The position numbers and the translations under genes are program-made. This document shows, in pieces, positions 6,913 to 63,769 of a stretch of 64,000 nt of DNA. Position 1 is the stretch's first letter, and the number at the start of each line of letters is the position of its first letter. The stretch lies in NCBI GenBank assembly GCA_947650285.1, contig CANTFL010001443.1:168180-232179 (forward strand). The letters run 5' to 3'. The notes below the pieces were generated by a model. It saw nothing but the letters and a program-made list of their open reading frames with translations, ran no database searches and had not been told where the DNA came from. The DNA is from Hyaloperonospora brassicae. Its lineage: Eukaryota > Oomycota > Peronosporomycetes > Peronosporales > Peronosporaceae.

Positions 6913-9004
6913 TTAGAGATAAAACTTGCTCGCTGCGAAGCCTGCAGCGGCGTTTTTGGGCGCACGATCCGAGTTCTTGATCCCCCTAGTGGCTGGACGG
7001 GAGCGCGTAACGGTCCGCCTGTTACGTGCCACATGTAAGAAAACGGTATGAAAGAAGCCTTTCAGCGATACACGCAGCGCACCAATCTGGGGTCTAGCGA
7101 AGTGGTCGAACATGCCAACATTCGGTCTCTGAATAGCGCGTGGCGCTTCCGATATTCCCATATTCCCCATCGGATTTCGCATCGACGAGCTAGGTGCGTC
7201 GCCTGCGTAAGGTCTGGCCGTCGGCCTCATCGAAGGGCGGCTAAACTGGCTGGCTTGCGAGACAAGTGGACCGCCTTCCTGATGCAGCATGCCCATCGTA
7301 GAGCGAGTAGGTGATGGAAATTGCCGAGAACCCGATTGGGATTTGAGCGTCTTGCACTGATGAAACCACGTCAGTGTTTCGTCCATCTCGTAACAATCTA
7401 TACTGAGAACTCACCATTTTCTCCCAATTCCGGCATTTTCGTGACTTCTCCTTGTACGCCTGTAGGTACAATCCTCATGGTATGAGCTTCTTGAGACCGA
7501 GCACACATAACGCATAATCGGACTTACCTCGCGGAGCTCGTCGTTCGAGCCCTTCAGAGCTTGCATCTTCGACTTTGTCTCTCGAAGCTCTGCTTCAAGC
7601 TGGTCAGTGTAGGTCTTCAGCTGAATGTACTTTTCCCCATGTTGAACTTGGAATGCCCTTTGTTCCTCGGCTGCGGTGCATTATTCTCGTTCACTGTTCA
7701 AATTACTGCCCAACTCAATTTCCAATCGTGAACATACCTTGTTGGCGTCTAACTTCTTCCTATTTTTCGGAACGAGAACACGACATAAGCGACCGCAGAT
7801 CACGACAAAAATCGACAAAGGGTCGCCCACCTGTCTACTCAACAACCAGTCAGCCAGCTTGACGATTCGAATCAGCGAATTGCACAACACTCACCTGAAC
7901 GAGTCTTGAGCCAGCTGGAACTACAGCATGAATCACCGTCAGCAAGTCTGAACCAAGATCTCAGCTGCCTGGAATGCCATTGTCTGCCTACCAAGATAAA
8001 ATCTGCAGCGAAAGATGTCAATCATATTTTTGTTTCTCGTATGAACTAGGAGCCCGCGTACCTAATGCTTGCTGAAAATGTTCTGCACGAACGTAACACG
8101 AATAGCGTAAGTCAGTCAAGTATCTGCATTCGATACACTCACACAGTTCGTACCAAAGCATGACGACGGGTCGGCCATCATTTCTTCCCATATGGCCTGC
8201 TCCAAACAGTCAGAGAAATGAAAACTGAACCAACACAATAGCTGCCGAAAGCTCGGTTTTGCAACAACCTCCGTCCTCTGTACATAACGTCACGATAAGT
8301 CTTGTATGGTCACCAGCTCAACCAGAGTCGACGTGGATCTCCCGTACCTTGGGATCTGCAACGCCGTGAATCGTTCTGTAACACTGTCAGTAGCTAAACA
8401 TCCAAACAAAACGAACGTGTCTCTTGCATGTAAAGTGTACGTCTCAGAGATCCCGCCGCGTCTTTATCCACCGCAAACCGAAGTAAAAACGCAGTCAGCA
8501 ATCGTCACGTTCGATCAAGCAAGCAATACTTGAGCTACTAGGGCCTACGCTTGACTCAGGTCTGCACGACACACACACACACGGAACAACAGGACGCGTC
8601 ACTTAGCCCAGCGCACATGAGTGTAGCCATTCAGTAGCTGCTCCGCCTACCGACTTGACACGCAGGACACTCGAGTCGCCCCTGTCCAAAGTGTTTGTAC
8701 GCGCATTTCTCCTGCAACACACAGACAACAACATGAGTACCGCCCGACACGCGCTCCCAAAGAGACGCTGTAGCCCTACACAGAACAAGTGGCCGCAGCT
8801 TGTGCGGTAGCACGTCTCGGCCGACTGCGCATCGGGCAGGATCGGCTCCCAGCACGCGTTGCAGCGCAGCTGCGGCCGGATGCGCGACCCCGAGAGAGAG
8901 GACGCATCGCCTACGCCGTCCAAGTCCCCCACTGTCGACGCTGCCTGCCGCTGTCCGCGGTTGCGCATGCTCGACGTGTCACTCATGCGGCTGTCGTCGT
9001 CCAT
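6913..9004 (-). CDS. HEI10: HEI10/CCNB1IP1-like RING protein (meiotic crossover factor), many exons
   Basis: Exon 1 is 9004-8780 and exon 2 starts at 8711 after a 68-nt intron. Together they give a RING finger whose first half (LRCNACW...TSCGHLFC) is nearly the plant HEI10 signature, continuing EKCAYKHFGQGRLECPACQ, so all C3HC4-type ligands are present. A series of short exons follows, readable from GT/AG borders: one encoding FQLAQDSFR (7895-7920), a 143-nt coiled-coil exon (7528-7670, FQVQHGEKYIQLK...), one encoding AYKEKSRKCRNWEKM (7415-7460), and a last exon from 7356 that is Ser/Pro/Arg-rich. RING, then coiled coil, then a basic disordered tail is the HEI10/CCNB1IP1 layout. In other eukaryotes these proteins are SUMO/ubiquitin-ligase-like factors that accumulate at crossover sites. 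The exact middle exons and the 3' end (6913, or about 6750 through a further intron) are uncertain. Confidence 0.68.
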
Positions 9005-16303: not shown

Positions 16304-17334
16304 GCTACTAAACGAGTGGTGCTTCTTGACGTGTTTGTGTACTGCAAACATTTCCAGCCACAAGAAGACACACACACGACACACCCGCGCACAGCCGTGA
16401 GTACGTTTAGACGACAACGAGGGTCGACGTGAGCGACGGCGGTACGGTCACTAGGGGAAAAGCGGCGGCGGTCCAAAGCGTCTGTGTCCCGCGTTCGCTC
16501 CGCCGCGCTCGGCGTCTGTTGAACACGACTCGACGACACGTTGTCGCGGGACGCACCTTGCTTGTCGCGGGGCAGGAGGAAGCACTGTGGGTCGCAGAGT
16601 CGTTGCAGCGCGCTCCTCTCTTGGTGTGGGCGAAGCGCTGGAGGTGCACCGGGGATAGTTCCAAATGACTTGAAGGGGCGGGCGCCCTGAGCACGAAGCG
16701 GCAGCCACCTGCTTTTCTTATGTATTTTTTCGGGTTTTTTTCCCGCTAAGTGCGGACGGAGAAATCAGGAGGCTTGTATTGGGAGTAGATAGCGCTTCTG
16801 GCCGACGCTGTGGTTTCGACCGGACCGCGGGCAAGGTAGACGGTCAGTGCCGGGTCGAGATTGCCGAGGTTTGAAGAAGGACCCGCGAGCTACGGGTTTC
16901 GTTTCACCGCCAGGATGCGCTTGCGCGAAGTTAGCACCTTATCAGAGAATACCCTTATACAAGCACACACACAGATGGGTGCACACCTTTTTACAAGAGT
17001 GGCATTTTCATAAGTAATTTTTACGTTGTCGATATGATGGCGAAGAAACGATCAGTTTCGCCACACCCTTCTGGTTTCTCTTGCTTCTTATTACACTCAC
17101 CCATCTCTACGAGAGACAACTTTGTGCCCAATTTTTACAGCGAGTCTTATAAAAAGTCTCTTACAGAGAGGTCTGAAAGAAAGAAAATGCATAAAATTTT
17201 AAAGCGTGGCCCTTCGATTATTAGGAAATGTGACGTTTTTCTACCATATGAAGTCTCATGTCGAGCTGTTTCGCCCTAGCGTACCGGTTCTTGCAAATAA
17301 CCGACGACATCTTATCCAGATCTGACTGTATGAT
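16304..17334. other. intergenic, nothing recognised
   Basis: Upstream region of the large CaaX gene followed by AT-rich sequence. Short ORFs only (up to 95 codons), with no domain or repeat. Confidence 0.45.
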
Positions 17335-17559
17335 TCACGTGTCCTCATCTGAGCGCATGAAGTACGAACGCAAAAGCAGGCAGCACTTTAGTGCTTCTTT
17401 TGCACTGACAGGCGCTTGATCTTCGTCGCTTTCGACTTCCGCGGGCTCCACTTCTGCTTCAATCAGAGCTTCATGTTCTTCGTGAATCTGCTCGTGTACC
17501 TCGATTTTGACATAATCATCCACGCTAACGGCTACACCAGGCTTTTGAAACATATGAGC
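17335..17559 (-). pseudogene. 3' half of a host gene split by the composite retrotransposon
   Basis: The frame ends VSAKEALKCCLLLRSYFMRSDEDT-stop and includes a very acidic stretch (EVHEQIHEEHEALIEAEVEP). It runs up to the 5-bp duplication CAGAT. If 17565-33303 is removed and one CAGAT kept, the minus-strand frame continues without a break into the stretch at 33304 and above (FKQDCCDLAHMFQKPGVAV). So this is the C-terminal end of an exon interrupted by the insertion. Family unknown; helical, acidic. Confidence 0.65.
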
Positions 17560-17564
17560 CAGAT
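17560..17564. repeat. target-site duplication CAGAT, left
   Basis: It directly precedes TGTAACGGGG, the outer end of the left LTR. The same five bases follow the outer end of the right LTR at 33299-33303. Five bases is the usual size for Ty3/Gypsy integration. Confidence 0.75.
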
Positions 17565-17967
17565 TGTAACGGGGTTGAAACGGGACACACCCTTGCGTGA
17601 ACTTAACGCAAAGGCTTGGGTGCCCCGACAGACGTACACGAGGGAAACGAGGAAGCGTAGATAAGGGAAAAGTAAAACTGTTATATTAATATAATTATGT
17701 CTTTCAACTACTGTCTCTCTGTTTGACTTAACTTAATTATGCTAATATAACTGAGTGTATGGTGACGTCTCGTCACCACTCATTGCGCGCGTCCTGCGGC
17801 GATTGGTGGGTTGATATCATCAAGATATCAACCAATGACACAGACTCTTTGGTCGACCCTTCAATATCACCACTTCGGTGATATTGTTAAAAGAATATCC
17901 GACGTAATATTCTTTATTGTCACTTTCCTTAAAGCGACAATTCCATGTAACGGGCTGCCCCGTTACA
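17565..17967 (-). repeat. type-1 LTR (3' LTR of element B)
   Basis: Bounded by TGTAACGGGG and CCCCGTTACA. It contains stem-loops GTTGATATC/GATATCAAC (17810-17832), CAATATCACC/GGTGATATTG, CCCTTGCGT/ACGCAAGGG and GGTGACG/CGTCACC. The same LTR type recurs at 25287 (inverted) and 63366. Compared with them it carries about 11 extra bases near its outer end. Confidence 0.88.
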
Positions 17968-17979
17968 TCACCCCCCTTA
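17968..17979 (-). other. polypurine tract of element B
   Basis: Read on the minus strand, TTAAGGGGGGTGA sits immediately before TGTAACGGGG. This is where plus-strand DNA synthesis is primed in LTR elements. Its position proves that gag-pol on the minus strand is the sense direction of B. Confidence 0.75.
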
Positions 17980-18082
17980 ACTGATAGTCACCGTGTGACT
18001 ATCGAAAATGTGGTGGCCACCCGTTGGTCACCATTGGGACAGGGAGCACTTGTTGGGTCCGTTCCATTTACTTTCCGCTTGA

Positions 18083-18111
18083 CCTCGCATAGTTAACATG
18101 TCTATGCGAGG
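18083..18111 (+). promoter_or_regulatory. stem-loop enclosing the start codon of the antisense ORF
   Basis: Perfect 10-bp arms CCTCGCATAG (18083-18092) and CTATGCGAGG (18102-18111) with a 9-base loop that holds the ATG at 18098. The arms recur in element C (around 32717-32744, where the loop has the same ATG) and in the third copy (63873-63901, loop TAAGCATGT). It could hide the start codon in RNA or simply be one of the many stem-loops of this family. Confidence 0.6.
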
Positions 18112-19654
18112 CGACTCAAGACCTGCACAGCCCGGTGCTGTGCCAGCCTCTGCGGCAGACGATTCGTCGTCTGCTGCTCTTTCTTCGCCTGCAGCAACAG
18201 GTGCTGCAGGTGCACGCGGTATCGCACCGCGTGCGCATGATGACCTCGACGTTGAGGTCATCTACTCTGGCGAGTCAGACGTGTCTGACTCGGGCAATGC
18301 TCCAGAGGCGTCTCGCTCACCGGCGACGCTCAGTATTCGCCAAGGCCACTGCCGAACGAACGGACTCGTGATTTGCATCACAGTCTGTTCGGCAGTGATG
18401 ACGATGATCAGGGTGGTGAGGAATATTATTCCTTACCACCGCCGGCTCGTGCGTCTTCGCAAGAGCGTGATGACGATGGCGTGAGCCGTCGTCAATCTGG
18501 GAGCCGTGGTACCAACAAAGGTACCACTGTGAAGCGTGATGAGCTGAAGCCGTGGCGTTTGCCCGAACGGCTCATTAATAGCTTGTCTCACGAGACAAGC
18601 CAACACCATCGAATACCCTTATTCGATGCGACTGAGCTTCACGTCTTGAGTCCCAGCGCGAAGAACTTTCGCGCTGAAGAAGATTTTTATCTCGATGTCT
18701 TTCTTAGACACCGATGGTAAAACGGCAACCAAAAGCGTGACAAAGCCTCGATTTTGGCTGCGTGGAACGCGTTCGTCCAAAACGTAAAGAATTTTGGACG
18801 AGAAGGGTGGCTCAAGAAACTTGAGGCGACACGCCTCAGGTTCGAAAAGCGAACGCCAACCGGTGCCAGGTACCGGTTGCACTATTTGTCGAGTGAGGCA
18901 GACATTCCTTGCCTCACATGGGGAGACCCTTGTGCGAGTTGTGTTGACAACTCGCAGCGTGCACATAGGGACGTGTATTCCCCAAGTTCGCCCTGGGGAA
19001 GGCAAACATCTCGAAGGAGATGCGTGACGCGATTGCAAACTTGCAATCCGTCTACAAGCGCCAAAAGCGCGTATTTGCCGATGGGCCCGAGGACTCATCG
19101 GATGGGTCTCGTCATACTGGCGGACGAGACCTTCAACATCCACCAACAGCTGAGAGCGGGGCTCCCAGCTGTTCCAAGAGGGTGGATACCCCCGCCACTG
19201 GACGAGGTAGCTCGTCCTTGATCCTGAATCGTCACGGTGATTCAAGATAGGCTCCACTAGGAAGCGTTGATCACCGTGAGCATCCACCAAAGGATGTGGT
19301 GGAGGAGGAAAGACCTCCTCCAGATGATTTGGTTCACCATCTCGACCCTTACGAGATGGATCGCGCAAATCAATGAATTGCGCGATGACTTGAAGCACGA
19401 GCGCGGCCGGCGCTACGCTTTGACAGATACCGTGCGGAAGAACCGCAAGGATCACGAGGCTGATCGGGCGAGGGATCGCGCCGATTATGCCACAGCGCAG
19501 CTTTAGGTCGAGCGGGATGTCCGCTCCCTATTCGGCGAGCTGGCGACAGCTCGCGGGGAGATATCTCGGTTAAGTTCCGAGGTATCATATCTGCGCGACC
19601 AGACGAATCGTCTGGAGGGCGAACGCAAGAACTTGATGGATGTTCTTGATCGAG
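18098..19654 (+). pseudogene. antisense ORF (aORF) of element B, decayed
   Basis: It starts MSMRGDSRPAQPG on the strand opposite to gag-pol. In order: a Ser/Ala/Asp-rich N-terminus; a conserved central domain (KPWRLPERLINSLSHETSQ, LSPSAKNFRAEEDFYLDVF, ILAAWNAFVQNVKNFGREGW); a segment MRDAIANLQSVYKRQKRVFA; then a coiled-coil tail (INELRDDLKHERGRRYAL, SYLRDQTNRLEGERKN). It is broken by frameshifts near 18370, 19000 and 19250 and by stops at 18718 and 19504. Element C carries the homologous protein at 32729-31133, and the coiled-coil part is conserved at the amino-acid level (ELR-x-D, RR-x-AL, AQL, ER, EL-x-TAR) despite clear DNA divergence, so it was a real protein. No family was recognised. 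The end is fused in frame to inverted integrase sequence by the local inversion at 19655. Confidence 0.7.
19104..19272 (-). pseudogene. chromodomain of element B pol, antisense to the aORF
   Basis: On the minus strand the frame reads QRFLVEPILNHRDDSGS, SYLVQWRGYPPSWNSWEP and LVDVEGLVRQYDETH, a canonical chromodomain with its aromatic cage positions (F, W, W). It belongs to the C-terminus of a chromovirus-type integrase, which targets insertion by binding histone marks. It lies fully inside the aORF on the other strand. A Pro-rich linker (FPPPPHPLV) precedes it. Confidence 0.75.
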
Positions 19655-20474
19655 GATATGTCCACTCGTTTTCGAGTTGGAGCGAATTCCTACCCATGGT
19701 GGAATTCGCCATCAATAATTCGGTGCATGCTACCACACAGCACACACCGTTTTACGTGAATGGCCTACGCCATCCACGTGTGCCCGCCCTTCTCGAGTAT
19801 GACTCTTGGATAAGGGGGTGAGGGACTCGCTCGGGCAAAAAACCGTTTTGGCTCTTGCTCATCACGTGTCGACGCTACCGTCGTCACGAATGATGCCGAT
19901 GTCGATCAAGTCGACATCGATGAAGAAGATCACCTCAATAATAGCGATGACGCTATTATTGACTCGGATGATGATGACGATGCTGGTATATTCAGCATCG
20001 TCAACGATTATGCCAGCGAGAAAGAAGACAACATCGCTGAAGAAGAGAGCGATCTCTTAGCAGTGCGCAAGAAGCGCACTGAAAGACAGAACATAGAGTC
20101 AGCAGAGAACTTCCTGCTGACTCGAGAAGCGGTAGTCCGTTTCGTTCAGGACTCCATCGCAAATGCGGTGGACCGTCAGAAACGGAACGCAGACAAGAAT
20201 GGAAGAGCAAATGCTCTTTCATTTAATGTTAATGACCTAGTACTACTGTCTACGGTAAACTTACCTGGACATGCCGTCACTAGTGTCGGCAGTAGTTTAC
20301 TACTGCCGAAGCACATTGGACCATTTCGTGTGTTGCATCGCAAGGGCAATGCATACACACTCAAATTGCCACGTAAGATGCGCATGCATCCTACGTTTTA
20401 CGTGGGGAGGCTCAGGCCGTACTGTCAGTGCGAGCCTTCTTCTTCCGATGAAGATAGCCCCCAGGATCTCTTCG
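19655..20474 (+). pseudogene. integrase C-terminus and GPY/F module of element B, locally inverted
   Basis: The plus strand reads GYVHSFSSWSEFLPMVEFAI, NNSVHATTQHTPFYVNG, then an acidic linker, then FVQDSIANAVDRQKRNADK and KHIGPFRVLHRKGNAYTLKL (GPY/F module). This is the continuation of the integrase whose catalytic part is on the minus strand just to the right, so this piece is in the wrong orientation. At the left edge it is fused to the aORF coiled coil. At the right edge, minus-strand sequence resembles the missing aORF tail (compare AGYLRSRKR in C). Both edges therefore fit one simple inversion of about 0.8 kb. Confidence 0.75.
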
Positions 20475-21061
20475 AGGACACGGTTCGCACGTTTTGTCTG
20501 ACCATCTGTTTCCGGATGGTCAGAAGTAGACATCTTCAATCGTGTTCCCAATGTGCGGGACACGGTTTGCCAAAATGCCGCCGTGAACCGAGGGTCACGG
20601 TCAAATACGAGTTCACGGGGTAACCCATGGAGTCTCGAGACCGTGTCAAGAAAGACACGAGCACAACCTTGAGCCTTGATCGACTCAGGGACAGCAGCAA
20701 GATGGACCATCTTGCTGAACCGGTCAACAAACACAAGAATACCATTATTCTTGTGAGCGTCTTCGGGAAAACCGAAGACGAAGTCCATTGAAACGGACTG
20801 CCAGCATTCTGTCGGAACAGGCAGAGGCTGCAATGGCGCACGGTATGAAGGACTAGGCTTCACCCGTTGACAAACCTCGCAAGCACGTATGTACTTGCGG
20901 AAAAACTGATACTGGCGTGGCCAGTAAAAGTCACGACTTACCGTGAGGTAAGCCTTTTCTCTCCCACGATGACCAACTGTTGGGGCATCGTGACACTCGT
21001 ACATGATGCGTAAACTCAAATCATGATACGGGAACGACGACACGAGGCGTGTCGTCGGCAA
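20475..21061 (-). pseudogene. integrase zinc-binding and catalytic core of element B
   Basis: In order: H2C2 zinc region (YECHDAPTVGHRGREKAYL, CEVCQRV), then the DDE core with SMDFVFGFPED, VFDRDPRFTAAFW and HPETDGQTKRANRVLEE. The core is intact in this frame, but the protein is cut off at RVLEE by the inversion to the left. Confidence 0.85.
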
Positions 21062-21093
21062 CAGCTGTATAATATAACAGTCCGTTGCGTGTA

Positions 21094-22720
21094 CTATACT
21101 GATCCGATGAGGATCGGTACAAAGCTGGTTAATCCCTCATGAATTTGCTGGATGGATTTCACTAGATGATCCATCAATCGCAGAAGATCCTTATCTTCTG
21201 CATATGCCTTTCGTACGTCGTCAAATAAGCTTGACGACGTAACACTGACTGACAGTGTCGCAACAGTGGGCTTATACTCACTGTTGGATTGTGCGCCTGG
21301 CTCGAAATCGGGCCGGCGCGAGAGCGCATCAACGACGACATTGAGTCGTCCTGGTTTATACTCCACGGAAAAGTTATACTTCGCAAAGAAATACATCCAC
21401 CTCGCCATCCTTTGCGAGAGGTGTGGGCTGTTTACGGCCGTGCGTAATGACGCATGGTCCGTATAGACAACAAACGGTCTATCTCTTAAGAGATAGACGC
21501 GAAACTTACCCAGTGCATATTTCATGGCAAGTAGTTCCTTGTCGATGCACTGGGTAATTACGCTCAGCCGCTTGCAGCTGACGCGATTGATAGCAGACGA
21601 CCCGCTCTGCGCCGTCTGTGTCGTATTGCATTAACGCACAGCCGATTGCAAAATCGCTGGCGTCACAGACCACATCAAATGGTCTGTCCTGGTCGGCAAA
21701 TCGCCAAGATGGGAGATTGCATCAAGCTTTTCTTATGCCTCAAAGGAACGCTGGCACTCAGCGTTCCATGACCACTTGACATTTTTCTTGAGCAGACAAG
21801 AAAGATGAATAGTCATCTCGGCGTAGTTGCGCGAGTACTTGTGCAAGTACGCCGCTAGATCAAGGAACTTTCTTAGTCCCTTGACATCGACTGGCACTGG
21901 CCGGTCGGTGATCGCCTTGATCTTTTCGGGATCAGGGCGTACGCCGTGTTTACCCACGATGCAGCCAAGAAGTGGTATTTCGCTAGCCGCGAAGATACAC
22001 TTCTTGAGGTTGGCGTACAACTTATACTTGCGCATAAGTTGAAAACCTTACGGACGTGAGTTCTGTGAACTTCAACGTCCGTCTATCCTTTCATAGCCCG
22101 GCTATGGACGAACACATCGTCGAAATAACTCGGTGCGAAATCCCGCACCGGTCTCAACAGAGTTGTAACACATCTGTTGAATGTTGCAGGGGCATTACTC
22201 AGCCCATGTGGCATCACTAGCCACTCCCACAGCATCCCGCTGGGGGTACTCACTGCTGTGTACGGAACATCCCGTTCACGCATGAGGATCGGATAGAAGT
22301 CATTCATCAGATCCATGGACGAGAAGATGGTGTTCTTATACATACCATCTATGATTACGTCCTTCCTCGGTATCGGCGTCTGAGCCGGTACCGTTGCAGC
22401 ATTCAATTTGTTGAATGCGTGCACTATCCGCCACCCTCCTGTGGCCTTTCGCACACAGAAGGTCGGAGATCTGTGAGGGGATGTTGATTCCCTCACATGG
22501 CCCGCTGCTAAGCGATCGGCAAAGAACTTGTCGATCGCTAGTACTTGTTCACGAGGCAGTGGCCACTGCTTCATGACACAGTACTTCGAGCCCGGTTTGA
22601 GCTCGATCTCGTGTCGAGTGCCTTTGTCCTTAGGCAACTCGCAAGGTACGGATTCAGGGAACACATCCCTGAATTCGATCAAATCCTTGTACAATGGATT
22701 TGCCTGAAGCGACTTCCGGG
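21094..22720 (-). pseudogene. reverse transcriptase and RNase H of element B
   Basis: RT motifs: RHEIELKPGS, KATGGWRIVHAFNKLN, IFSSMDLMNDFYPI, GLSNAPATFNR and YFDDVFVHS (the catalytic x-x-DD). Thumb region: KYKLYANLKKCIFAASEIP. RNase H: FDVVCDASDFAIGCALMQ, VYTDHASLR, DALSRRPDF. Stops follow RAMKG and RSFEA, and exactly the same two stops occur in element C. This whole tract is almost identical in DNA to 28100-29540, while the flanking parts of the two elements are clearly diverged. Confidence 0.88.
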
Positions 22721-23835
22721 ATTAGGATTCATATCTCTTAATCCGAGTCTTCTCATCGATGACAGTTTCGTCCATCGATGAACTGCTGAGAACCCTCTCG
22801 GTCTCAGTAAACACCGTTGCCGATCGAATATCGGCCACATACTCATCCTCTGTGACGAGTACGGCAGATCTGCTTGACTTTGCCACTACGCAGATCACGC
22901 AAGAACCGCTTCGGCTCTAGTGTCGGCAATTGGGTTATCTACGAAGTTAACTTCTGAGGCGCAACCAGATCAAGCGTGTAAGCGCCTACGCTTGATCCAT
23001 CATTAACCAAGACATTCAGTGTCTCGGTTACTTCCTGGGAAGTCACTTCCACAGGATCCGGAAGAGCTTTCTCCACAATGTAGTCATCATCTACATTGTG
23101 TTCTTGTACAGTCGTGCTAACGACCGTACCACAAGTGAGGCCATCGCACTCGCTCGTAGTACACCCACGTGAGTGTGGGCGCTCCAAGATATTCGTCAGG
23201 TGATTATCTAAGGAACAAGTAGCAGGCATCGTTGCCGACCGATACTACAAACTCACCCTTGTCTCGTATTTTCTGAGCCAAGGCTACCCTAAGATGACGT
23301 CGAACCTATCATCTAGGTCAAGCACGATGAAATCATCATCGTACTGTTTGCCTTTTGACGTGTAGTGGATTCCGAATACACGCTTCTTCACAGTGATCGA
23401 TGCGCCTGTCGCTAGGCGCACCGTCATATTCGTTGGAGAGATCTCCCGCTTCACGAAGTTTAAACTTCCTGCTTCTAGCGACTGGCGACGAACAAAATTG
23501 TTCGACGCCCCACAGTTTACTAGTACGCGAAGTGACAAGTCTTTTGTCACTTCTAACTTCCAGGTGATGATCGACACCTCATCACCAGGTGCAGAGACAC
23601 ACATAAATTGTGTGTCGGCAGCAACCTTCTTCAGGAGATTTGCAAATTCTCTTGATGTTGCTAGATCAGTAGGTCGTTTAGCCCCTACTGATCCCGGCCG
23701 TTTTTTATGGTCCACCTCGCTGTTGCGACTTCGCAACAGCAACGGACCCTCGCCCTCCAGTTCTTCTTGCTGGTGGGTGAATACTGCGCTCAGCACCGCG
23801 AGGTCCTGAGCGGGGGACACTGCATTCGTATGCAT
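22721..23835 (-). pseudogene. aspartic protease and pre-RT linker of element B, active site lost
   Basis: The protease reads LSLRVLVNCGASNNFV where element C has ALVDCGASNNFV, so the catalytic Asp is replaced by Asn. The flap and second half follow (VRLATGASITVKKR, DDDFIVLDLDDRFDVILG) and end in a stop at 23284. The linker to RT continues with several stops (ILERPHSRGCTTSECDGLT, VGAYTLDLVAPQKLT). Confidence 0.75.
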
Positions 23836-24742
23836 AATGTCCCAACTTGTGACAGCGATGGCATCTCACCGTTCGCTTGTCGTTCATAGGGCGAGGTTTC
23901 TCGCCATCGACTTGACAGAGGTCCATTGGTTCTGGACCTCCGACTGCTAATCGTCTCTGTGGACGATGCGGGGTCAACGTAGCGTGAGCCTGTATCACGC
24001 TATAATCTTCTTGCTCCTCTGCGAAGATTGCCTCTGAGAGCGTCTTTAGCTCTCCGCGGAACAGGTGGTCCCTAACGGGACCGTATGAAAGCCCTTTAAT
24101 AAAGATTGTGATCAACACAAAGTCACTCCCAGAATTCACTACCATGCAGCTTGCAAGGTAGCGTACATGTTGGTCGTAAGCGTGGACCTTACGCTTACCC
24201 TGCTTGAGTTGTAGGAGCTCCGAAAGAGTCCTGAACTCTGCTCTGAGCGGTTCGAACGTCTCACTGAGCAGGGTCTTGAAGACATCTAACGACCCAAACA
24301 CATTTGGGTCGTGCAACTTGAGGTTCAGGGCTCAAGCTCTGGTTTCTCCTGCCAGGTTAGACTGAGCGAATGAGACTTGCATTCGCTCATCGTCGATGCG
24401 ACGAGCATCGATGGCATCGTCCAGCTCGACAAACCACCTCAACAGGGAGTCTTCCTCGACTCCCCGATACTTGGAGACCTCTAGTTTTAGAGACTCCCGT
24501 CGACGCTCACGCGTCGACTCTGCGGACTGAGACTGTTGTTGTCTCAGTGCTTCGGTACCCTGGTGATCTTGTTGTTGTAACAAGATCACCTGCGCTCGCG
24601 ACTCATCAAGTTCTCGTCGCAAGAAATTGATAATGACGACATGTTGCTGGTCCCTATCCCTTGGGGATAGCATGGCCCATATGGCTTCCTCGCCAACGGT
24701 CGAACTCATTCGTTCGATCGCACTCCATTCGATGTCGCTCAA
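23705..24742 (-). pseudogene. gag of element B
   Basis: It starts MSDIEWSAIERMSS. Coiled-coil/matrix-like N-terminus, then a capsid-type retrotransposon gag region (PNVFGSLDVFKTLLSETFEP, LLQLKQGKRKVHAYDQHV) and a CCHC zinc knuckle CHRCHKLGHYAYEC. One in-frame stop after ETRA (24332) splits it; otherwise a single frame. A frame change lies between the knuckle and the protease. Confidence 0.82.
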
Positions 24743-24834
24743 ATGAAGTAGCTTTCACGGGTTCCGTGAAAGCTGCCTTCGTCTACATCGCTCAACATGT
24801 TCATGTTGGGCGATGGGGTTGTGGTCCTTGGACG

Positions 24835-24852
24835 GACTACGAAGTGCTACCA
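24835..24852 (-). other. primer-binding site of element B
   Basis: On the minus strand, two bases after the LTR end GTTACA, the sequence TGGTAGCACTTCGTAG begins. Element C has TGGTAGCACTTTGTAG at the same place. The TGG start fits a tRNA 3' CCA end. I did not match the tRNA. Confidence 0.6.
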
Positions 24853-24854
24853 GG

Positions 24855-25286
24855 TGTAACAAGGCACTGTTGACTACGTACTGGGTGACCAGTACGGAGT
24901 ATACTTCTACTGACGACAGTGGTCGATAGTGCCCTGCTAGGTGTTGAAGGAACACAGAGGAAGGAAATGAGACTAAGTAGTCAGACTAGTCTCTGGTAAA
25001 AGTAAAACTGTATTAATATAATTAAGTCCTATAACTTCTTGAATCTTCTGTTGTCCTGACTTAATTATACTAATATAACTAAATGTATGATGACGTCTAC
25101 TCACCACCCATTGTGCGCGTCTAGCAGCGATTAGTGGGTTGATACCATCACGATATCAACCAATGAGTAGACCCTTCGGACATCTCAACAATATCACCAT
25201 GTCTGTGATATTGTTAAAAGAATATCCGACGTAATATTTTTTATTGTCAATTTGTTCAATGACAATTTCATGTAACGGGCTACCCC
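24855..25286 (-). repeat. type-2 LTR (5' LTR of element B), six terminal bases missing
   Basis: It starts TGTAAC at 24855 (PBS side) and ends CTACCCC at 25286, where a complete copy (32862-33298) continues to the terminal GTTACA. It is about 75% similar to type 1 in the inner two thirds and unlike it in the outer 130 bases. Stem-loops include GTACTGG/CCAGTAC and AACAATATCAC/GTGATATTGTT. Confidence 0.8.
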
Positions 25287-25696
25287 TGTAACGGGGCAGC
25301 CCGTTACATGGAATTGTCGCTTTGAGGAAAGTGACAATAAGAATATGAAGTTGTATATTCTTTTAACAATATCACCGAAGTGGTGATATTGAAGGGTCGA
25401 CCAAAGAGTCTGTTCATTGGTTGATATCTTGATGATATCAACCCACCAATCGCCGCTAGACGCGCGCAATTAGTGGTGACGAGACGTCACCATACACTCA
25501 GTTATATTAGCATAATTAAGTAAAGTCAAACAGAGAGACAGTAGCTAAAGACTTAATTATATTAATATAACATTTCTACTTTTCTTTAAGACAGTGTTGC
25601 CTCTGTCTTACCTACCGCTTCCTCGGTTGCCTCTTGTACGCTTGTCGGTGCATGATACCCTTGCGTTAAGTTCACGCAAGGGTGTGCCCCGTTACT
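25287..25696 (+). repeat. type-1 LTR (5' LTR of element C)
   Basis: It starts TGTAACGGGG directly at the end of the neighbouring LTR, with no bases and no duplication between. It ends CCCCGTTACT at 25696, where the last base is T instead of the usual A. It is the inverted equivalent of 17565-17967. Confidence 0.85.
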
Positions 25697-25698
25697 CC

Positions 25699-25716
25699 TG
25701 GTAGCACTTTGTAGTC
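25699..25716 (+). other. primer-binding site of element C
   Basis: TGGTAGCACTTTGTAG starts two bases after the LTR, as in element B (one difference in 16). Confidence 0.65.
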
Positions 25717-25802
25717 CTTCCAGCGACCACCTCCACATCATCCACCATGAACATGTTGGATGATGAGGAGACCTTTCACACCACGCGTGATGGGTTAACC
25801 AT

Positions 25803-26900
25803 TTGAGTGACATCGAATGGAGTGCGGTAGAACGCTTGAGTTCTACCGTATGCGAGGTCGCTATTAGCGCCATGTTGGAGACTCTTGACAGAGACCAACA
25901 ACATGCCGCTATGGCCAAGTTCATTCAAAATGAACTTGTCGCCGAAAGGGAGAAAGTAGCCTTGCTTCACCAGCAAGGCTCTCAACAGGCCGAGCAGTTG
26001 AGAGAACTCGGTGCTCAACAGACAGAGCTGTTGAGACAGCAGCAACTCCATGCTGCTGTGGGCGGGACGGCACATGCGCGTCGTCCCGAGGTCATGAAGG
26101 TTGACATCTCCAAGTACAGTGGAGTCCCGGAGGACTCCCTGTTACTATGGTTTGTCGAACTCGACAGAGCCCTAAGGGCTCGTCGCGTCGAAGATGAGAA
26201 AATGAAACTCACATTTGCTCAGACCCACTAGGCAGGGTGTGCCAAAACTTGGTCCCTGTGGCTCGAGAGTAGCGACCCAAATGTGTTTAGGTCGTTAGAT
26301 GACTTCAAGTCCCGGCTCAGACAAACGTTTGAACCGCCACGGGCTAAGTTCAGGGCTCGTTCAGAGCTCCTGAAACTCAAGCAGGGTAAGCGTGATGTGC
26401 ACGCTTACGCACAACATATACGACTCCTTGCGAGTAGTATAACTGCTAACCCAGTACATAAATACACGTTGATTACGGTGTTCATGCAAGGGCTCGCAGA
26501 AGGGCCCGTCAGGAGCCACCTGTTCCGCCTTGATCTGAATACGCTGTAAGATGCGATATCAGCCGCGGAACGGGAAGACTTTAGCATTAGACAGGCTCAT
26601 GCTAGCTCAAACGCTTATCTTCCACCGAGACGACAAGAGATCGGAGGTCCAGAACCAATGCACCTCTGCTATGTTGAGATCAAGAGACCTCGCTCTTCGA
26701 ACAACAAGCGATTGCTAAAGTGCAATCGCTGTCAGAAGTTAGGGTATTTCGCACATGAGTGTAGTGCTCCACGCTTAGTACCAAGCAGTACTGAGCGAAA
26801 TGGACGACCATTCGCAAAGAAGGGCAATGGACGTGGGTCCAGCGCTGTTGCGAAGCCGCAACAGCGAGACGAACCATCAAAAAATGGTCGGGGTCAGTAG
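25803..26900 (+). pseudogene. gag of element C
   Basis: It starts MSDIEWSAVERLSS. It has the same organisation as gag of B but is strongly diverged in the first half (Gln-rich coiled coil, QQAEQLRELGAQQTELL). It continues with PNVFRSLDDFKSRLRQTFEP, LLKLKQGKRDVHAYAQHI and the knuckle CNRCQKLGYFAHEC. It is broken by a stop at 26229-26231 and a further one at 26547-26549. Confidence 0.82.
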
Positions 26901-26950
26901 GGGCGGAGCTCCCTACTGATCCAGCAACCTCAAGAGAATTTGCAAATCTC

Positions 26951-28030
26951 TTGACGAAAGTTGCTCCAGATACACAATCATTGTGTGTCTCTGCACCTGG
27001 TGATGACGTTTCGCTCATCACCTTGAAGTTGGAAGCGACAAATGATTTGTCGCTTCGTGCCCTAGTAGACTGTGGGGCGTCGAACAACTTTGTTCGTCGC
27101 CAGTCACTAGAGGGTCGTAGGCTCAAGTTCGTTGAGCGCGACATTCCCCTCACGAGGATGACGGTGCGCCTTGCAACAGGCGCATCGATAACCGTTGAGA
27201 AACGTGTAGTAGGAATCCACTACACGTTAGAGGGCGAACAGTACGATGATGTCTTCATCGTACTAGATCTGGATGACAAATTTGATGTCATCCTGGGATT
27301 ACCTTGGCTCAGAAAGTACGAGCCAAGGGTGAGCTGGCAGCATCGATCCGTGAAGATGCCTGCCGCTTGTTCATCAGATGGCCATCTGATGAACATCTTG
27401 GAGCGTCCACAAGCGTGTGGATGTTCTGCGAGTGAGTGCGATGGCCTCACTTGCGGTACGGTCGTTAGCACGACTGCACAAGATCACAGTGTAGTTGATC
27501 ACTACACTGTGGAGCATGCTCCCGGCGGCTGTACAGGAGTACAGGCTGCGCCGAAGGTCCACCACTCGAAGAAGTCGAGTGGACCGGGACATGGATGCAT
27601 GCCTAGCGGGCAGCATCTTAGACAGAAGAAACCTGTTGCTCCCAAAGGGCAACATGGAAATCCTAGGTCGACTGGAGAGTCGACCGTAGAGGATCGGTCC
27701 CTGACTGTGGTTGCACAGCCACAGTCAGATGACGTCGAGGGAATTAGTCCCCACGTACTTGAGGAAGGAATTCCTAAAGAGTCACTTGCCGAAGGATTAG
27801 GCCTTCATCAACCTGTGGAAAGAAGTTCTCAGGAAGTAACCGAGACGTTGAAAGTCTTGCTTATTGACGGATCAAGCGTAGGCGCTTATACGCTTGATCT
27901 GATTGTGCCTCCGAAGTTAACTTCGGAGATAACTCAGTTGCCAACGCTAGAACCGAAGCAGTTCTTGCGTTATCTGCGTAGTGGCAAAGTCAAGCAGATC
28001 TGCCTACTCGTCACAGAGGTAAGTATGTAA
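26951..28030 (+). pseudogene. aspartic protease and linker of element C
   Basis: An open frame of 359 codons. The protease motif ALVDCGASNNFV is intact, followed by VRLATGASITVEKR, DDVFIVLDLDDKFDVILGLP and the linker (CSASECDGLTCGTVVSTT ... VGAYTLDLIVPPKLT). It is longer than the homologous part of B and appears the least damaged segment of the composite. The frame stops at 28030 just before RT. Confidence 0.8.
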
Positions 28031-28089
28031 TCGATATTTGGTCGGCGACAGTATTTGCTGAGAACGGACAGGTTCTCAGCAGCTCATCG

Positions 28090-29760
28090 ATGGACGAAAG
28101 TGTCCTCGATGAGAAGACTCGGATTGAGCGATACACCTCCCAATCCTGGGAGTCACTTCAGGCAAATCCATTGTACAAGGATTTGATCGAATTCAGGGAT
28201 GTGTTTCCTGAATCCGTACCTTGCGAGTTGCCTAAGGACAAAGGCACTCGACACGAGATCGAGCTCAAACCGGGCTCGAAGTACTGTGTCATGAAGCAGT
28301 GGCCACTGCCTCGTGAACAAGTACTAGCGATCGACAAGTTCTTTGCCGATCGCTTAGCAGCGGGCCATGTGAGGGAATCAACATCCCCTCACAGATCTCC
28401 GATCTTCTGTGTGCGAAAGGCCACAGGAGGGTGGCGGATAGTGCACGCATTCAACAAATTGAATGCTGCAACGGTACCGGCTCAGACGCCGATACCGAGG
28501 AAGGACGTAATCATAGATGGTATGTATAAGAACACCATCTTCTCGTCCATGGATCTGATGAATGACTTCTATCCGATCCTCATGCGTGAACGGGATGTTC
28601 CGTACACAGCAGTGAGTACCCCCAGCGGGATGCTGTGGGAGTGGCTAGTGATGCCACAGGGGCTGAGTAATGCCCCTGCAACATTCAACAGATGTGTTAC
28701 AACTCTGTTGAGACCGGTGCGGGATTTCGCACCGAGTTATTTCGACGATGTGTTCGTCCATAGCCGGGCTATGAAAGGATAGACGGACGTTGAAGTTCAC
28801 AGAACTCACGTCCGTAAGGTTTTCAACTTATGCGCAAGTATAAGTTGTACGCCAACCTCAAGAAGTGTATCTTCGCGGCTAGCGAAATACCACTTCTTGG
28901 CTGCATCGTGGGTAAACACGGCGTACGCCCTGATCCCGAAAAGATCAAGGCGATCACCGACCGGCCAGTGCCAGTCGATGTCAAGGGACTAAGAAAGTTC
29001 CTTGGTCTAGCGGCGTACTTGCACAAGTACTCGCGCAACTACGCCGAGATGACTATTCATCTTTCTTGTCTGCTCAAGAAAAATGTCAAGTGGTCATGGA
29101 ACGCTGAGTGCCAGCGTTCCTTTGAGGCATAAGAAAAGCTTGATGCAATCTCCCATCTTGGCGATTTGCCGACCAGGACAGACCATTTGATGTGGTCTGT
29201 GACGCCAGCGATTTTGCAATCGGCTGTGCGTTAATGCAATACGACGCAGACGGCGCAGAGCGGGTCGTCTGCTATCAATCGCGTCAGCTGCAAGCGGCTG
29301 AGCGTAATTACCCAGTGCACGACAAGGAACTACTTGCCATGAAATATGCACTGGCTAAGTTTCGCGTCTATCTCTTAAGAGATAGACCGTTTGTTGTCTA
29401 TACGGACCATGCGTCATTACGCACGGCCGTAAACAGCCCACACCTCTCGCAAAGGATGGCGAGGTGGATGTATTTCTTTGCGAAGTATAACTTTTCCGTG
29501 GAGTATAAACCAGGACGACTCAATGTCGTTGCTGATGCGTTATCATGTCGACCCGACTTCGAGCCAACGTCCCGAGTCAACAGTGAGGCCTTGCCCACTG
29601 TTGCGACACTTTTCATCAGTGTGCCGTCGTCGACTTTACTGGACGACGTGCGGAAAGCATACGCAGAAGACACGAATCTCCACCGTTTGATAGGTCATCT
29701 TGCGAACCCATCCCGGAAATCCTTGTCGGATTTGCCGGCTCTATACCGTTCCTCTTTGAA
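28090..29760 (+). pseudogene. reverse transcriptase and RNase H of element C
   Basis: It has the same motifs as B, including YFDDVFVHS and FDVVCDASDFAIGCALMQ. Stops after RAMKG (28780) and RSFEA (29130) are shared exactly with B. After about 29540 the two elements diverge again (DALSCRPDFEPTS here, DALSRRPDFEPGA in B). Confidence 0.88.
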
Positions 29761-29769
29761 TCGGTACAC

Positions 29770-31347
29770 GACTCGCAATGGCCTGCTGTACTATACAGCA
29801 GTTGCCGACGACACGCCTCGTGTCGTCGTTCCCGATCATGATGAATTGCGATTACGCTCCATGTTCGAGTGTCACGATGCGCCGTCTGGCGGGCGCCGTG
29901 GCCGAGAAAAGGCTTACCTCACGGTAAGTCGTGCTTTTACTGGCCACGCCAGTATCAGTTTATCCGCAAGTACATTCGTTCTTGCGAGTTTTGTCAACGG
30001 GTGAAGCCTAGTCCTTCATCCCGTGCACCATTGCAACCTCTGCCCGTCCCGGCAGGGTGTTGGAAGTCCGAGTCGATGGACTTTGTCTTCGGGTTTTCCG
30101 AAGACAATAACAAGAATAATGGTCTTTCGTGTTTGTGGGTCGTTTCAGTAAGATGGTACATCTTGCTGCAGTCCAAGAATCGATAAACGCCCACGGCTGT
30201 GCGCGTGTCTTCATCGACACTGTATTTAGACTCCGCGGTTTACCCCGTGAACTCGTATTTGACCGTGACCCTTGGTTGACGGCGGCGTTTGGCAATCCGT
30301 ATTCCGCACATTGAAAACACGATTGAAGATGTCAACCTCTGAACATCCCGAAACGGATGGTTAGACTGAACGAGCGAACCGTGTCCTCGAAGAAATTAAT
30401 TGTGGATACGTCCACTCCTTTTCACATTGGAGTGAGTTCTTGCCGATGGTTGGGCTCGACATCAACAACTCCGTGCATGCGTCCAGAACGCATACACCGT
30501 TCTACGTGAATGGCTTACGCCACCCACGTGTTCCCGCCCTCATACAGAGTGACTCTGAGTTAAGGGAGGGGCTCGCTCTAGCAAAAACTGTTTTGGCTCT
30601 TGCTCATCACGTATCACCGCTCACGCCGATGATATTGATGCCGATGTCGGCAACGTCGAAATCGAGGAAATAGAGCTTAGCAGTAGCGATGACGCTACTG
30701 CCACATCAGACAATGATAAAGATGCTGGGATATTCAGCATCGTCAACGACAATGCCAGCGAGGGAGAAGACACCCTCGTTGAAGAAGAGAGCAATCTCTT
30801 AGCAGTGCGCGCGAAGCGCACTGAAAGACAAAACATAGAGTCAGCAGAGAACTTCCTGCTGACTCTAGAGGCGGCAGTCCGTTTTGTTCAGGACTCCATC
30901 GCAAATGCAGTGGACCGCCAGAAACGGAACGCAGACAAGAATGGAAGAGCAAATGCTCTTTCATTTAAGGTTAATGACCTTGTACAACTGTCTACGGTAA
31001 ACTTACCTGGACATGTAGTCACTAATGTCGGCAGTAGTTTACTACTGCCAAAATACATTGGACCATTTCGTGTGTTGCATCGCAAGGGCAATGCATACAC
31101 ACTCAAATTGCCTCGCAGGATGCGCACGCATCCTACATTTTTTGTTGGTAGTCTCCGTTCGTGCCATCAGTACGAGACCTCTTGCGAGACCGAAGATAAC
31201 CGGCGCGCTCAAGGATCGCTAACAGATTATTGTGATCACGGACCAAACACTGAAGTTGGTCTTTCATCGACGCGGCTTTGCGACGAGCCGTATCTAGCTC
31301 GTCACGCAAATGACGCCTCTCGCGTTCACTCTCAAGCTGAGCGATAG
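29770..31347 (+). pseudogene. integrase and GPY/F module of element C, frameshifted
   Basis: Zinc region with frameshift near 29930, then CEFCQRVKPSPSSRAPLQPL, SMDFVFGFSED, VFDRDPWLTAAFG, GYVHS-type region (YVHSFSHWSEFLPM), THTPFYVNGLRHPRVPAL, an acidic linker, FVQDSIANAVDRQKRNADK and YIGPFRVLHRKGNAYTLKL. Here the C-terminal part is in the normal direction, which shows what was inverted in B. A stop at 31345 precedes the chromodomain linker in the same frame. Confidence 0.82.
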
Positions 31348-32729
31348 CGAACTCCGATCGTTCCTTCTCCTGATCGGCACGAAGACGTCGCACGTCCGAC
31401 TGCAAGGCTTGTCGACGATTATATTCGTGATCGACGTCCTTCCTCAGCTCGGTCAGGTAACGCTCGTGGTTACCCAAAGTCTCGTGCAGGCCCGGCGGCT
31501 GAGCCGGACCTTGTCTTTCCACCGCCACCGGAACCACTGGTAAATTCCCACGGTGGTCAACGCTTTCTTGTGGAGCTTATCTTAAACCACCGTGGCGATT
31601 CGGAATCAAGGACGAGTTACCTCGTCCGGTGGCGTGGGTACCCACCTTCCTTTTACAGCTGAAAAAATATCGTTCCCAGCTGTTGATGGATGTTGAAGGT
31701 CTCGTTTGCCAGTATGACAAGACTCATCCGATGAGTCCTCGGGCCCATCGGCAAATACGCGCTTTTGGCGCTTGTAGACGGATTGCAAGTTTGCAATCGC
31801 GTCACGCATCTCCTCCGAGATGTTTGCCCTCCCCAGGGCGAACTTGGGGAATACACGTCCCTATGTGCACGTTGCGAGTTGTCGACACAGCTCGCACAAG
31901 GATCACTCCAAGATGAGGTATGGAATGCCGGCCTCACTTGACAAACAATGCAACCGATACCTGGCACCGGTTGGCGTTCGCTTTTCGAACCTGATGCGTA
32001 TTGCCTCAAGTTTCTTGAGCCACCCTTCTCGTCCAAATTTCTTTACGTTTTGGACGAACGCGTTCCACGCAGCTAAAAGCGAGGCTTTGTCACGCTTTTG
32101 GTTGCCGTTGTACCATCGATGTCTAATAAAGACATCGAGATAAAAATCTTCTTCAGCGCGAAAGTTCTTCGCGCTAGGACTCAAGCCGTGAAGCTCAGTC
32201 GCGTCGAATAAGGGTATTCGATGGTGTTGGCTTGTCTCGTGAGACAAGCTATTAATGAGCCGTTCGGGAAATCGCCACGGCTTAAGCTCACCACGCTTCA
32301 ATGTGGTACCTGTTTCGGTACCACGGTTTTCAGAATGACGACGGATGTCGCCATCGTCATCACGCTCTTGCGGGGAAGCACAAGCTGATACTGGTGAGGC
32401 ATGGTATTCCTCATCATAGAGTTCATCATCTCTCCGAATAGACTGTGTTGCGTTTCACGAGTCCGCTCATTTGACAGTGCTCTTGACGAACGATGAGGCA
32501 CCGCCGGTGATCGGGATGCCTCTGGAATGTTCCGCGAGTCAGGAACGTCTGACTCGCCAGAATGGATCTTCTCATTGTCAAGGTCATCATGTGCACGTGG
32601 TGCGGTACCGCGTGCGTCTACAGCACCTTCTGCTGCAGACGGAGAACAAGGAGCAGACGAAGAAGCGTCTGCCGCAGAATCTGGCACAGCAGCAGGCTGT
32701 GTGGTCTTCGAGTCACCTCGCATAGACAT
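31133..32729 (-). pseudogene. antisense ORF (aORF) of element C, decayed
   Basis: It starts MSMRGDSKTTQP at 32729 inside the same stem-loop as in B. N-terminal Ala/Ser/Asp-rich region, then KPWRFPERLINSLSHETSQ, LSPSAKNFRAEEDFYLDVF, LLAAWNAFVQNVKKFGREGW (one open frame 32301-31903), MRDAIANLQSVYKRQKRVFA (31809) and a coiled-coil C-terminus (31537-31133: TELRKDVDHEYNRRQALQS, AQLESERERRHLRDEL, LRSRKRSR). Frameshifts lie between these blocks. It converges with pol: its last ~130 codons lie over the integrase linker. It was not recognised as any known gag, env or silencing suppressor. Confidence 0.7.
31348..31716 (+). pseudogene. Pro-rich linker and chromodomain of element C, antisense to the aORF
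   Basis: It continues in the same frame after the stop at 31345: a Pro/Arg-rich linker (VFPPPPEPLV), then QRFLVELILNHRGDSES, SYLVRWRGYPPSF, a stop, and QLLMDVEGLVCQY. It overlaps the aORF on the other strand over its full length, so two proteins were once encoded on opposite strands here. Confidence 0.7.
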
Positions 32730-32848
32730 GTTAACTATGCGAGGCAGGGTCAGGAATGAATGGGTCTGACCAAACAAGTGCTCCCTGTCCCACTGGTGTC
32801 CAACGGGTGGTTATTAAGTTTTTGATAGTCACACGGTGACTATCAGAT

Positions 32849-32861
32849 AAGGGAGGGGTGC
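32849..32861 (+). other. polypurine tract of element C
   Basis: AAGGGAGGGGTGC immediately precedes TGTAACGGGG at 32862, matching the mirror-image tract of B at 17968. Confidence 0.75.
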
Positions 32862-33298
32862 TGTAACGGGGTAGCCCTCTACATGAAATTGTCATTGAAC
32901 AAATTGACAATAAAGAATATTACGTCGGATATTCTTTTAACAATATCACAGACATGGTGATATTGTTGAGATGTCCGAAGGGTCTACTCATTGGTTGATA
33001 TCGTGATGGTACAACCCACCAATCGCTGCTAGACGCGCACAATGGGTGGTGAGTAGACGTCATCATACATTTAGTTACATTAGTATAATTAAGTCAGGAC
33101 AACAGAAGATTCAAGAAGTTATAGGACTTAATTATATTAATACAGTTTTACTTTTACCAGAGACTAGTCTGACTACTTAGTCTCCTTTCCTTCCTCGGTG
33201 TTCCTTCAGCACCTAGCAGGGCACTATCGACCACTGTCGTCAGTAGAAGTATACTCCGTACTGGTCAACCAGTACGTAGTCAACAGTGCCCCGTTACA
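32862..33298 (+). repeat. type-2 LTR (3' LTR of element C), complete
   Basis: It runs from TGTAACGGGG to CCCCGTTACA and is followed directly by CAGAT. It is the complete inverted counterpart of 24855-25286. It contains GAGACTA/TAGTCTC and GTACTGG/CCAGTAC stem-loops. Confidence 0.85.
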
Positions 33299-33303
33299 CA
33301 GAT
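33299..33303. repeat. target-site duplication CAGAT, right
   Basis: Matches 17560-17564 exactly. Confidence 0.75.
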
Positions 33304-33545
33304 CGCAGCAGTCTTGTTTAAAGGCGAGGCTGGACTGTAGATAGTCGTTTTGTGCACGCAAATCCGCAACCTGTGGCTCTTCGATGATCCCACGCTTGAT
33401 CCGTCGAACCCCGATTGATCTCCCCGCCAATACTGTTCGAGCTCTCAGCTTTAAAGTCACTGGCTTTGAAAGCATTAAGTCTGCGTTCCATGTTTGCTTC
33501 GATCAATTCCATGCGCCATCGCATCTGAAGTTTCTTGTAGCGATA
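33304..33545 (-). pseudogene. 5' half of the host gene split by the composite
   Basis: The minus strand reads MRWRMELIEANMERRLNAFK, then, after a one-base frame change near 33400, GIIEEPQVADLRAQNDYLQS and SLAFKQDCCDL up to the duplication. It joins in frame with 17559-17335. The product is helical with a coiled-coil look. Family unknown. Further upstream the sequence becomes AT-rich with a possible splice acceptor near 33530-33545, then repeat. Confidence 0.55.
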
Positions 33546-63756: not shown

Positions 63757-63769
63757 TCACCCCCCTTAA
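63757..63769 (-). other. polypurine tract of element G
   Basis: On the minus strand TTAAGGGGGGTGA directly precedes TGTAACGGGG, identical to element B. Confidence 0.7.

Follow-up and report, generated by a model that had tools for sequence, protein, structure and literature searches.

The 64,000-nucleotide window analysed here (positions 168,180 to 232,179 of contig CANTFL010001443.1, assembly GCA_947650285.1) comes from the oomycete Hyaloperonospora brassicae. It carries two degraded copies of one Ty3/Gypsy element that lie head to head, one on the minus strand (17565-25286) and one on the plus strand (25287-33298), and a chain of short perfect hairpins runs through both. The element is a Ty3/Gypsy chromovirus of this species. 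The window copies belong to the first (A) of two hairpin-bearing families; L016, used below for comparison, is an open-framed family-A copy elsewhere in the genome.

17560-17564, unstranded: left copy of the target duplication CAGAT of the composite insertion, read directly, with an LTR (long terminal repeat) end at 17565
17565-25286, minus: hairpin Gypsy element (family A), degraded, frames broken; from LTR ends, pairwise match to the plus copy and stems
17565-17967, minus: LTR (TGTAACGGG...CCCGTTACA), 3' end of the minus copy; from LTR ends and repeats
18098-19670, plus: remnant of the antisense open reading frame (ORF) of the minus copy, end approximate; start read against the L016 antisense protein, end scaled to L016
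18622-19455, minus: chromodomain frame at the pol end of the minus copy; Pfam PF00385, E 3.5e-12
20303-21061, minus: integrase zinc-binding and core domain frame of the minus copy; Pfam PF17921 and PF00665
24855-25286, minus: LTR, 5' end of the minus copy, from repeats; outer end truncated at the junction, last bases absent by reading
25287-33298, plus: hairpin Gypsy element (family A), degraded; from LTR ends and stems
25287-25696, plus: 5' LTR of the plus copy; from LTR ends, right end by reading
26951-28027, plus: protease frame of the plus copy; Pfam PF08284
28090-28779, plus: reverse transcriptase frame of the plus copy; Pfam PF00078
29192-30001, plus: RNase H frame of the plus copy; Pfam PF17917
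32862-33298, plus: 3' LTR of the plus copy; from LTR ends and repeats
33299-33303, unstranded: right copy of the target duplication CAGAT, read directly
17680-33300, unstranded: chain of 215 perfect stems (arm at least 7, loop 0-30) with a median spacing of 55 nucleotides (nt); from the inverted-repeat list
63366-64000, minus: third copy, of which the LTR and the first internal bases are present, oriented as the minus copy and cut by the window end; from stems, repeats and LTR ends

The LTRs of both window copies have the ends TGTAACGGG...CCCGTTACA. TGTAAC stands at 17565, GTTACA ends at 33298 and CAGAT flanks the whole at 17560-17564 and 33299-33303, which agrees with the outer limits drawn in a sequence-only reading that preceded this analysis.

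A search of the genome (100.56 Mb, 898 contigs) with the reverse transcriptase (RT) protein matched at least 150 places at 93-100% identity, many with open frames of more than 1300 amino acids (aa). Family A comprises the loci L009-L016 and L021-L023. Family B (L019, L020, L024 and L026) has an RT ~71-72% identical to that of A and is divided into the subgroups B1 (L019) and B2 (L020), whose RT proteins are 91-92% identical. Pfam positions give the pol order protease, RT, RNase H, integrase in L009, L016 and L019, and less decayed copies elsewhere retain the full domain order together with a Tf2-1-like SH3 domain. Pol ends with the chromodomain PF00385 in L016, L019 and the minus window copy. 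The LTRs of L016 are direct repeats, 99.7% identical over 391 bp, and the LTR ends of the family are TG...CA. The element thus resembles Tf2/Tcn1-like Ty3/Gypsy chromoviruses in its protease, RT, RNase H, integrase, Tf2-1-like SH3 domain, chromodomain and LTRs, but it adds to these a whole-length hairpin chain and an antisense ORF at its 3' end.

Stems in the window were counted as perfect, non-overlapping inverted repeats with arms of at least 7 and loops of 3-20 per 1-kb bin. Each of the 16 bins from 17001 to 33000 holds 5-17 stems against 0.5-1.6 after shuffling (10 dinucleotide shuffles per bin), which bears out the claim of a stem-loop chain made in the sequence-only reading. The remaining bins hold 0-4 stems, except for 63001-64000 with 8, where the third copy starts. 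When loops of 0-30 are allowed, 17501-33400 contains 215 stems with arms of at least 7, 151 of at least 8 and 56 of at least 10. About 26 stems (arms from 6) had been counted by hand in 17,980-19,220, where our list has 24 with arms of at least 7. The three stems that had been quoted all exist, although GTGAGGCA/TGCCTCAC starts at 18893, one base earlier than given, and the AACCGGT stem has one further pair.

The open-framed family-A copies L009, L015 and L016 carry 13-20 stems/kb in every one of the first eight bins; in the two bins past the element the density drops to 0-6. In L016 it is 16.6/kb in pol and 17.4/kb in the remainder. The L016 frame has 24, 16 and 20 stems with arms of 8, 9 and 10, three each of 11 and 12 and none longer, so arms concentrate at 8-10 and drop steeply beyond. 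Loop lengths peak at 4-5, loops of 3-7 prevail and loops of 0-1 are rare; the whole hairpin mostly spans 19-29 nt. The least decayed copies are therefore a near-continuous chain of hairpins, ~16-17/kb, with arms mostly of 8-10 and loops mostly of 3-8. Palindromic sites in double-stranded DNA for a DNA-binding protein were judged unlikely in view of these loop lengths. Among 51 loops no tetraloop signature was seen (GNRA 6 sense and 4 antisense, UNCG 0).

The excess persists when codons are preserved. The L009 pol frame has 70 stems against 4.94 ± 1.62 after codon-preserving shuffling, and six further frames have 79 against 6.7, 83 against 6.8, 57 against 4.8, 51 against 6.6, 30 against 6.2 and 31 against 4.4. 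All seven frames tested exceed their own codon shuffles (z 9.6 to 40.2), and the claim of a stem-loop chain thereby survives the codon shuffle that the sequence-only reading had named as its check. Chance, composition or simple repeats, an explanation to which we give next to no probability, is refuted by the dinucleotide and codon shuffles, and within single loci the flanks are at background.

Fifteen of 20 loci of ~10 kb fetched from the genome are stem-rich, all from family A or the second Gypsy family B; the other five and eight shorter loci are not. Ten further loci, selected because they resemble A or B, range from 4.6 to 15.4 stems/kb, and three additional ones from 4.3 to 13.1. The first stem-poor loci have integrases unlike those of A and B, and several are presumably Copia-like, judging by an integrase motif. 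In one locus with a Copia-like integrase (L017), the fourth kb has 7 stems/kb, above background. These first controls were mostly not Gypsy, and family C was then added as a fair control. In the piece of its copy L042 that was fetched, a frame of 1333 aa is open, with 56% identity to A across 914 aa; L042 carries 6 stems against 4.1 ± 2.0 in codon shuffles, and L043 none against 1.4. Family B thus shares the hairpin architecture of A at different positions, whereas the open-framed family C is without it. The sequence-only reading had confined the hairpins to one family, which family B contradicts. Its statement that the other Gypsy lineage lacks them is correct for the degraded pieces at 34-63 kb of the window and for family C, but not for every other Gypsy lineage; the density is accordingly not a property of all other elements in the genome.

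In an RT tree that is midpoint-rooted only, B clusters with C and not with A (support 98/99), so that either A and B acquired the hairpins independently or C lost them. Each of the A, B and C lineages has relatives in Phytophthora or Globisporangium, and among the 120 of 2563 RT relatives listed, those bearing a name are mostly oomycetes. The comparison with other oomycetes is one of proteins only; DNA relatives were sought in viral contig and genome contig collections and none were found.

The stems do not keep their places. Of 64 A stems (a further 6 were excluded because of gaps), none is preserved intact at its position in B, nor is any of 33 B stems in A (18 excluded). B1 and B2 have 6 of 49 stems with arms of at least 7 in common (2 dropped), and 1 of 15 with arms of at least 8 in the RT-integrase part, where nucleotide identity is 71%. 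Stem density is conserved while stem places turn over. Stems lie where homologues are less conserved (0.71 vs 0.79 and 0.69 vs 0.77), and unusual residues forced by stems were not seen (rare residues in A, 19/190 in stems and 51/467 outside; in B, 12/114 and 71/594).

Changes were inferred by parsimony on trees of family-A copies (18-19 per analysis, the two window copies excluded) over 1935 stem columns and 4720 columns outside. Internal branches, which represent the replicating lineage off the line to the reference, carry 12 stem changes and 94 outside; end branches, which represent single copies, carry 420 and 1196 (Fisher p 4.6e-4). The stem/outside rate ratio is 0.31 on internal branches and 0.86 in single copies. 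At third codon positions the internal changes are 2 in stems and 45 outside and the end changes 155 and 478 (p 5e-4), with ratios of 0.11 and 0.77; with the most diverged copies dropped, the internal third-position counts are 4 vs 57 or 6 vs 46. Repeating the count with four reference copies gives internal ratios of 0.26-0.31, a level that no more than 1 in 2000 rotations of the stem mask reached. On end branches the ratio is 0.82-0.87, slightly under the null of 0.96-0.97. Strong constraint on internal branches beside weak constraint on end branches indicates that stems are retained in the lineage that replicates and decay in copies once inserted; old copies show stem loss. Selection, not mutation, best explains the upkeep of the stems, and we consider it very likely that hairpin structure, in general terms, is selected.

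A mutational drive, in which RT or a DNA polymerase copies arm from arm by template switching and palindromes accumulate without selection, had been offered as a cause in the sequence-only reading. According to PMC8604942, yeast genes show template switching at inverted repeats. The perfect stems, whose helices almost never run past a mismatch, would fit such copying, as would some stem gains that consist of several changes within one arm. Three loop inversions flanked by stem arms also point this way; they occur among 107 strongly differing loop variants, with no chance expectation computed. Those in L037 and L029 are exact (single copies, RT-integrase part, arms nearly or fully intact), that in L013 has one extra difference, and a fourth flagged case is unconvincing. 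Measured against the nearest copy, multi-pair gains number 24 vs 5.7 expected, but neighbour losses were counted as gains and this result is not used. Strictly private gains stay at the null level, with 2 vs 2.0 of at least two changes and 1 vs 0.5 of at least three. Stem gains common to related copies exist, one apparently stepwise (L015, then L011 and L016). On internal branches there is one compensated pair against ~60 expected (by our own arithmetic, half of ~120 neutral stem changes spreading to the other arm); an earlier run on pol only, with the window copies included, gave three, with 11 broken pairs going to A:C and 4 to G:T. In a test of arm asymmetry between copies, the split of changes showed no clear excess of unevenness over shifted positions. 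Family C, which is replicated in the same cells, does without stems. These results make arm copying quite improbable as the cause of the chain, and template switching seems instead to act on finished stems. The element is like quasipalindrome correction and short-range template switching in its perfect inverted repeats and spacer inversions, but shows no sign of arm homogenisation as a driver, as far as the portions of PMC8604942 and PMC7202029 consulted allow the comparison.

The arms also appear matched in stability. Longer arms are lower in guanine-cytosine (GC) content, with partial correlations of -0.39 in A, -0.61 in B2 and -0.23 in B1 (p 0.08). Hairpin energies in A have a spread of 2.39 kcal/mol, compared with 3.82 when arms of equal length are drawn at random (60 draws, the lowest 3.29); the corresponding values are 2.58 and 3.37 in B1 (lowest draw 2.71) and 2.79 and 3.67 in B2 (lowest draw 2.75, hence within the random range). 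Arms are tuned to about -13 kcal/mol, the AT-rich ones being longer. This tuning argues further against arm copying, which has no reason to produce it.

The structure is nearly the same on both strands. Folding energy exceeds that of shuffles along the whole length, and per 200 nt it is -85.0 sense and -84.9 antisense in A (shuffled -57.1), -69.5 and -69.1 in B1 (shuffled -58.4) and -63.0 and -63.8 in B2 (shuffled -56.1); sense and antisense are alike in the three families (paired-t p 0.95, 0.69 and 0.43). These values bear on the possibility that the sense genomic RNA alone is selected, its hairpins aiding packaging, stability or reverse transcription in the way known from RNA viruses with genome-scale ordered RNA structure. 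Selected RNA helices normally retain many G:U pairs. Mismatches that interrupt helices favour G:T over A:C in B1 (L019, 6/1) and slightly in A (L016, 15/12; L009, 19/13; L011, 16/12), but not in B2 (L020, 1/1). In the window copies they are 6/8 and 2/3 with four flanking pairs (total 8/11) and 45 and 50 with three. Helix ends give 25/19, 23/21, 21/20, 8/12, 6/8 and, for the outer flanks of L012, 21/13, the last again in favour of a sense RNA. Breaks on internal branches went to G:T four times and to A:C five times, and pairs repaired on the path to L016 came from each six times. Pairing is nearly strictly Watson-Crick, with at most a slight lean to G:T that lies below what selection on sense RNA only would produce.

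The best hint of one-strandedness comes from the loops: in family A they are rich in A, which outnumbers T on the sense strand (223 vs 154, p 4.5e-4), mostly outside pol; the bias is not significant in B1 (107/85) or B2 (67/62). It fits a sense RNA or the minus-strand complementary DNA (cDNA), whose loops would be T-rich. We regard selection on the sense RNA alone as unlikely overall. The idea of structure selected throughout, put forward in the sequence-only reading, is supported by the internal-branch constraint, the third positions and the dependence of arm length on GC, but its purely sense-RNA version is not clearly supported, with strands equal and G:T about as frequent as A:C. Hairpins could also act in the single-stranded minus-strand cDNA during reverse transcription, through protection, compaction or strand transfer. 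Strict Watson-Crick pairing suits DNA hairpins, as do the prevalence of loops of 3-7 and the rarity of the shortest. No positive evidence separates cDNA from RNA, however, and other Gypsy elements in the same genome do without hairpins; a role in cDNA seems improbable to us.

Both strands also encode protein. A long antisense ORF spans the final part of pol and the sequence that precedes the 3' LTR, with 534-535 aa in three open family-A copies, 459 aa in B1, 478 aa in B2 and 433 aa in family C. The antisense ORFs lie as follows.

L016 (family A): 6004-7620
L019 (B1): 7037-8431
L020 (B2): 6701-8215
family C: L042 plus L044

Because this ORF overlaps the end of pol, both strands are probably transcribed. 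The B1 and B2 antisense proteins are 43% identical over 181 aa. Those of A and B have no significant match to each other (E 0.024), that of C does not match B2 in the part compared, and none reaches the cut-off of a Pfam family. A search for relatives gave eight matches, one from H. arabidopsidis. By reading, the B antisense proteins have a serine-arginine-rich repeat stretch and a likely coiled coil. Bidirectional coding as the sole explanation of the hairpins is weakened by family C, which has the antisense ORF and no hairpins.

What the hairpins may do is suggested by the equal structure of the two strands, the coding capacity of both, the short arms and the small RNAs that the host group makes from transposable elements; in the sections of PMC3804510 consulted, Phytophthora produces abundant 25/26-nt small RNAs from such elements. 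Fast-folding hairpins in both transcripts would impede the annealing of sense and antisense into double-stranded RNA and would conceal target sites from small-RNA complexes. Arms under ~13 pairs would be too short as Dicer substrates, and small RNAs cut from the element would fold on themselves. Among 25-mers, 27% in L016 fold below -6 kcal/mol against 8% when shuffled; in family C the values are 15% and 9%. Evasion of RNA silencing is the likeliest function we can name, held with a little less than even confidence. That purifying selection keeps the hairpins of a replicating chromovirus lineage, within genes and outside them, most plausibly as a defence against RNA silencing, we take as an evenly balanced proposition. 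The fullest version is more tentative. It holds that the element is selected over its entire sequence, down to the synonymous sites of every gene, for strand-symmetric, stability-tuned hairpins that would armour both transcripts against silencing, with individual stems replaced and density kept, in two Gypsy families and not in a third.

Several observations weigh against selection for silencing evasion in addition to the A-rich loops. The antisense ORF of family C exists without hairpins. In L016, ~18-21% of windows of 21 or 25 nt contact no stem, and the gaps between stems appear, by inspection, no more even than random. The sample behind the branch comparison is small, with 18-19 copies per analysis and only 12 internal stem changes. 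Hairpins could even provoke silencing, as long inverted repeats in Phytophthora are potent sources of 21-nt small RNAs according to the passages of PMC3804510 consulted.

The element has partial counterparts in other systems. RNA viruses with genome-scale ordered RNA structure have excess folding energy genome-wide and stem positions that are unfixed between relatives, and the element is like them in both respects; its stems, however, are perfect, with strict Watson-Crick pairs, and the two strands do not differ; in A the energy excess is ~49%. Yeast Ty3 genomic RNA is likewise a structured Gypsy RNA, but the consulted parts of PMC11381356 describe short palindromes at its 5' end, six searched and one used for dimerisation, whereas the stems here occur throughout. 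The plant Gypsy element Retand has an antisense ORF between pol and 3' LTR, as described in passages of PMC11963269; it is not a chromovirus, those passages report no hairpin chain, and the antisense proteins here have no confident Pfam match. Among the open-access papers that literature searches listed, with most subscription journals outside this scope, no title or abstract opening describes an element of this kind. Where selection acts on global nucleic-acid structure, its signs are mostly faint and statistical; here they are dense, perfect and visible by eye, and the same genome supplies a relative without hairpins as an internal control. The element gives a direct route to the role of global structure in silencing, packaging and reverse transcription. 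It indicates that almost every synonymous site of a coding element can bear a second constraint. For annotation and tests of selection, such elements would violate the assumption of neutral synonymous sites and could pass for template-switch hotspots.

The window copies have further features of layout. There is no host DNA between the minus and plus copies, and a single CAGAT duplication stands at the outer ends (17560-33303). The left LTR resembles the 5' LTR of the plus copy (96%), and the 5' LTR of the minus copy resembles the right LTR (97-98%). This crossed kinship in a head-to-head pair with one duplication suggests an inversion or a joint insertion. About 0.8 kb near the integrase end (19646-20441 and 30396-31183, 83% identical) has the opposite relative orientation between the copies, unlike the rest, and the copies have converted stretches in common. 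The third family-A copy at the contig end (63366-64000) is ~95% like the minus copy. Repeats that are 71-97% alike lie at 34.0-34.8, 43.8-44.8 and 57.0-58.2 kb (34042-58195), and degraded Gypsy pieces near 48-53 kb; stem density in both is that of the background. A host ORF at 9460-11325 matches a Hyaloperonospora brassicae protein at 99% (43% of its length) and has relatives across the Peronosporales.

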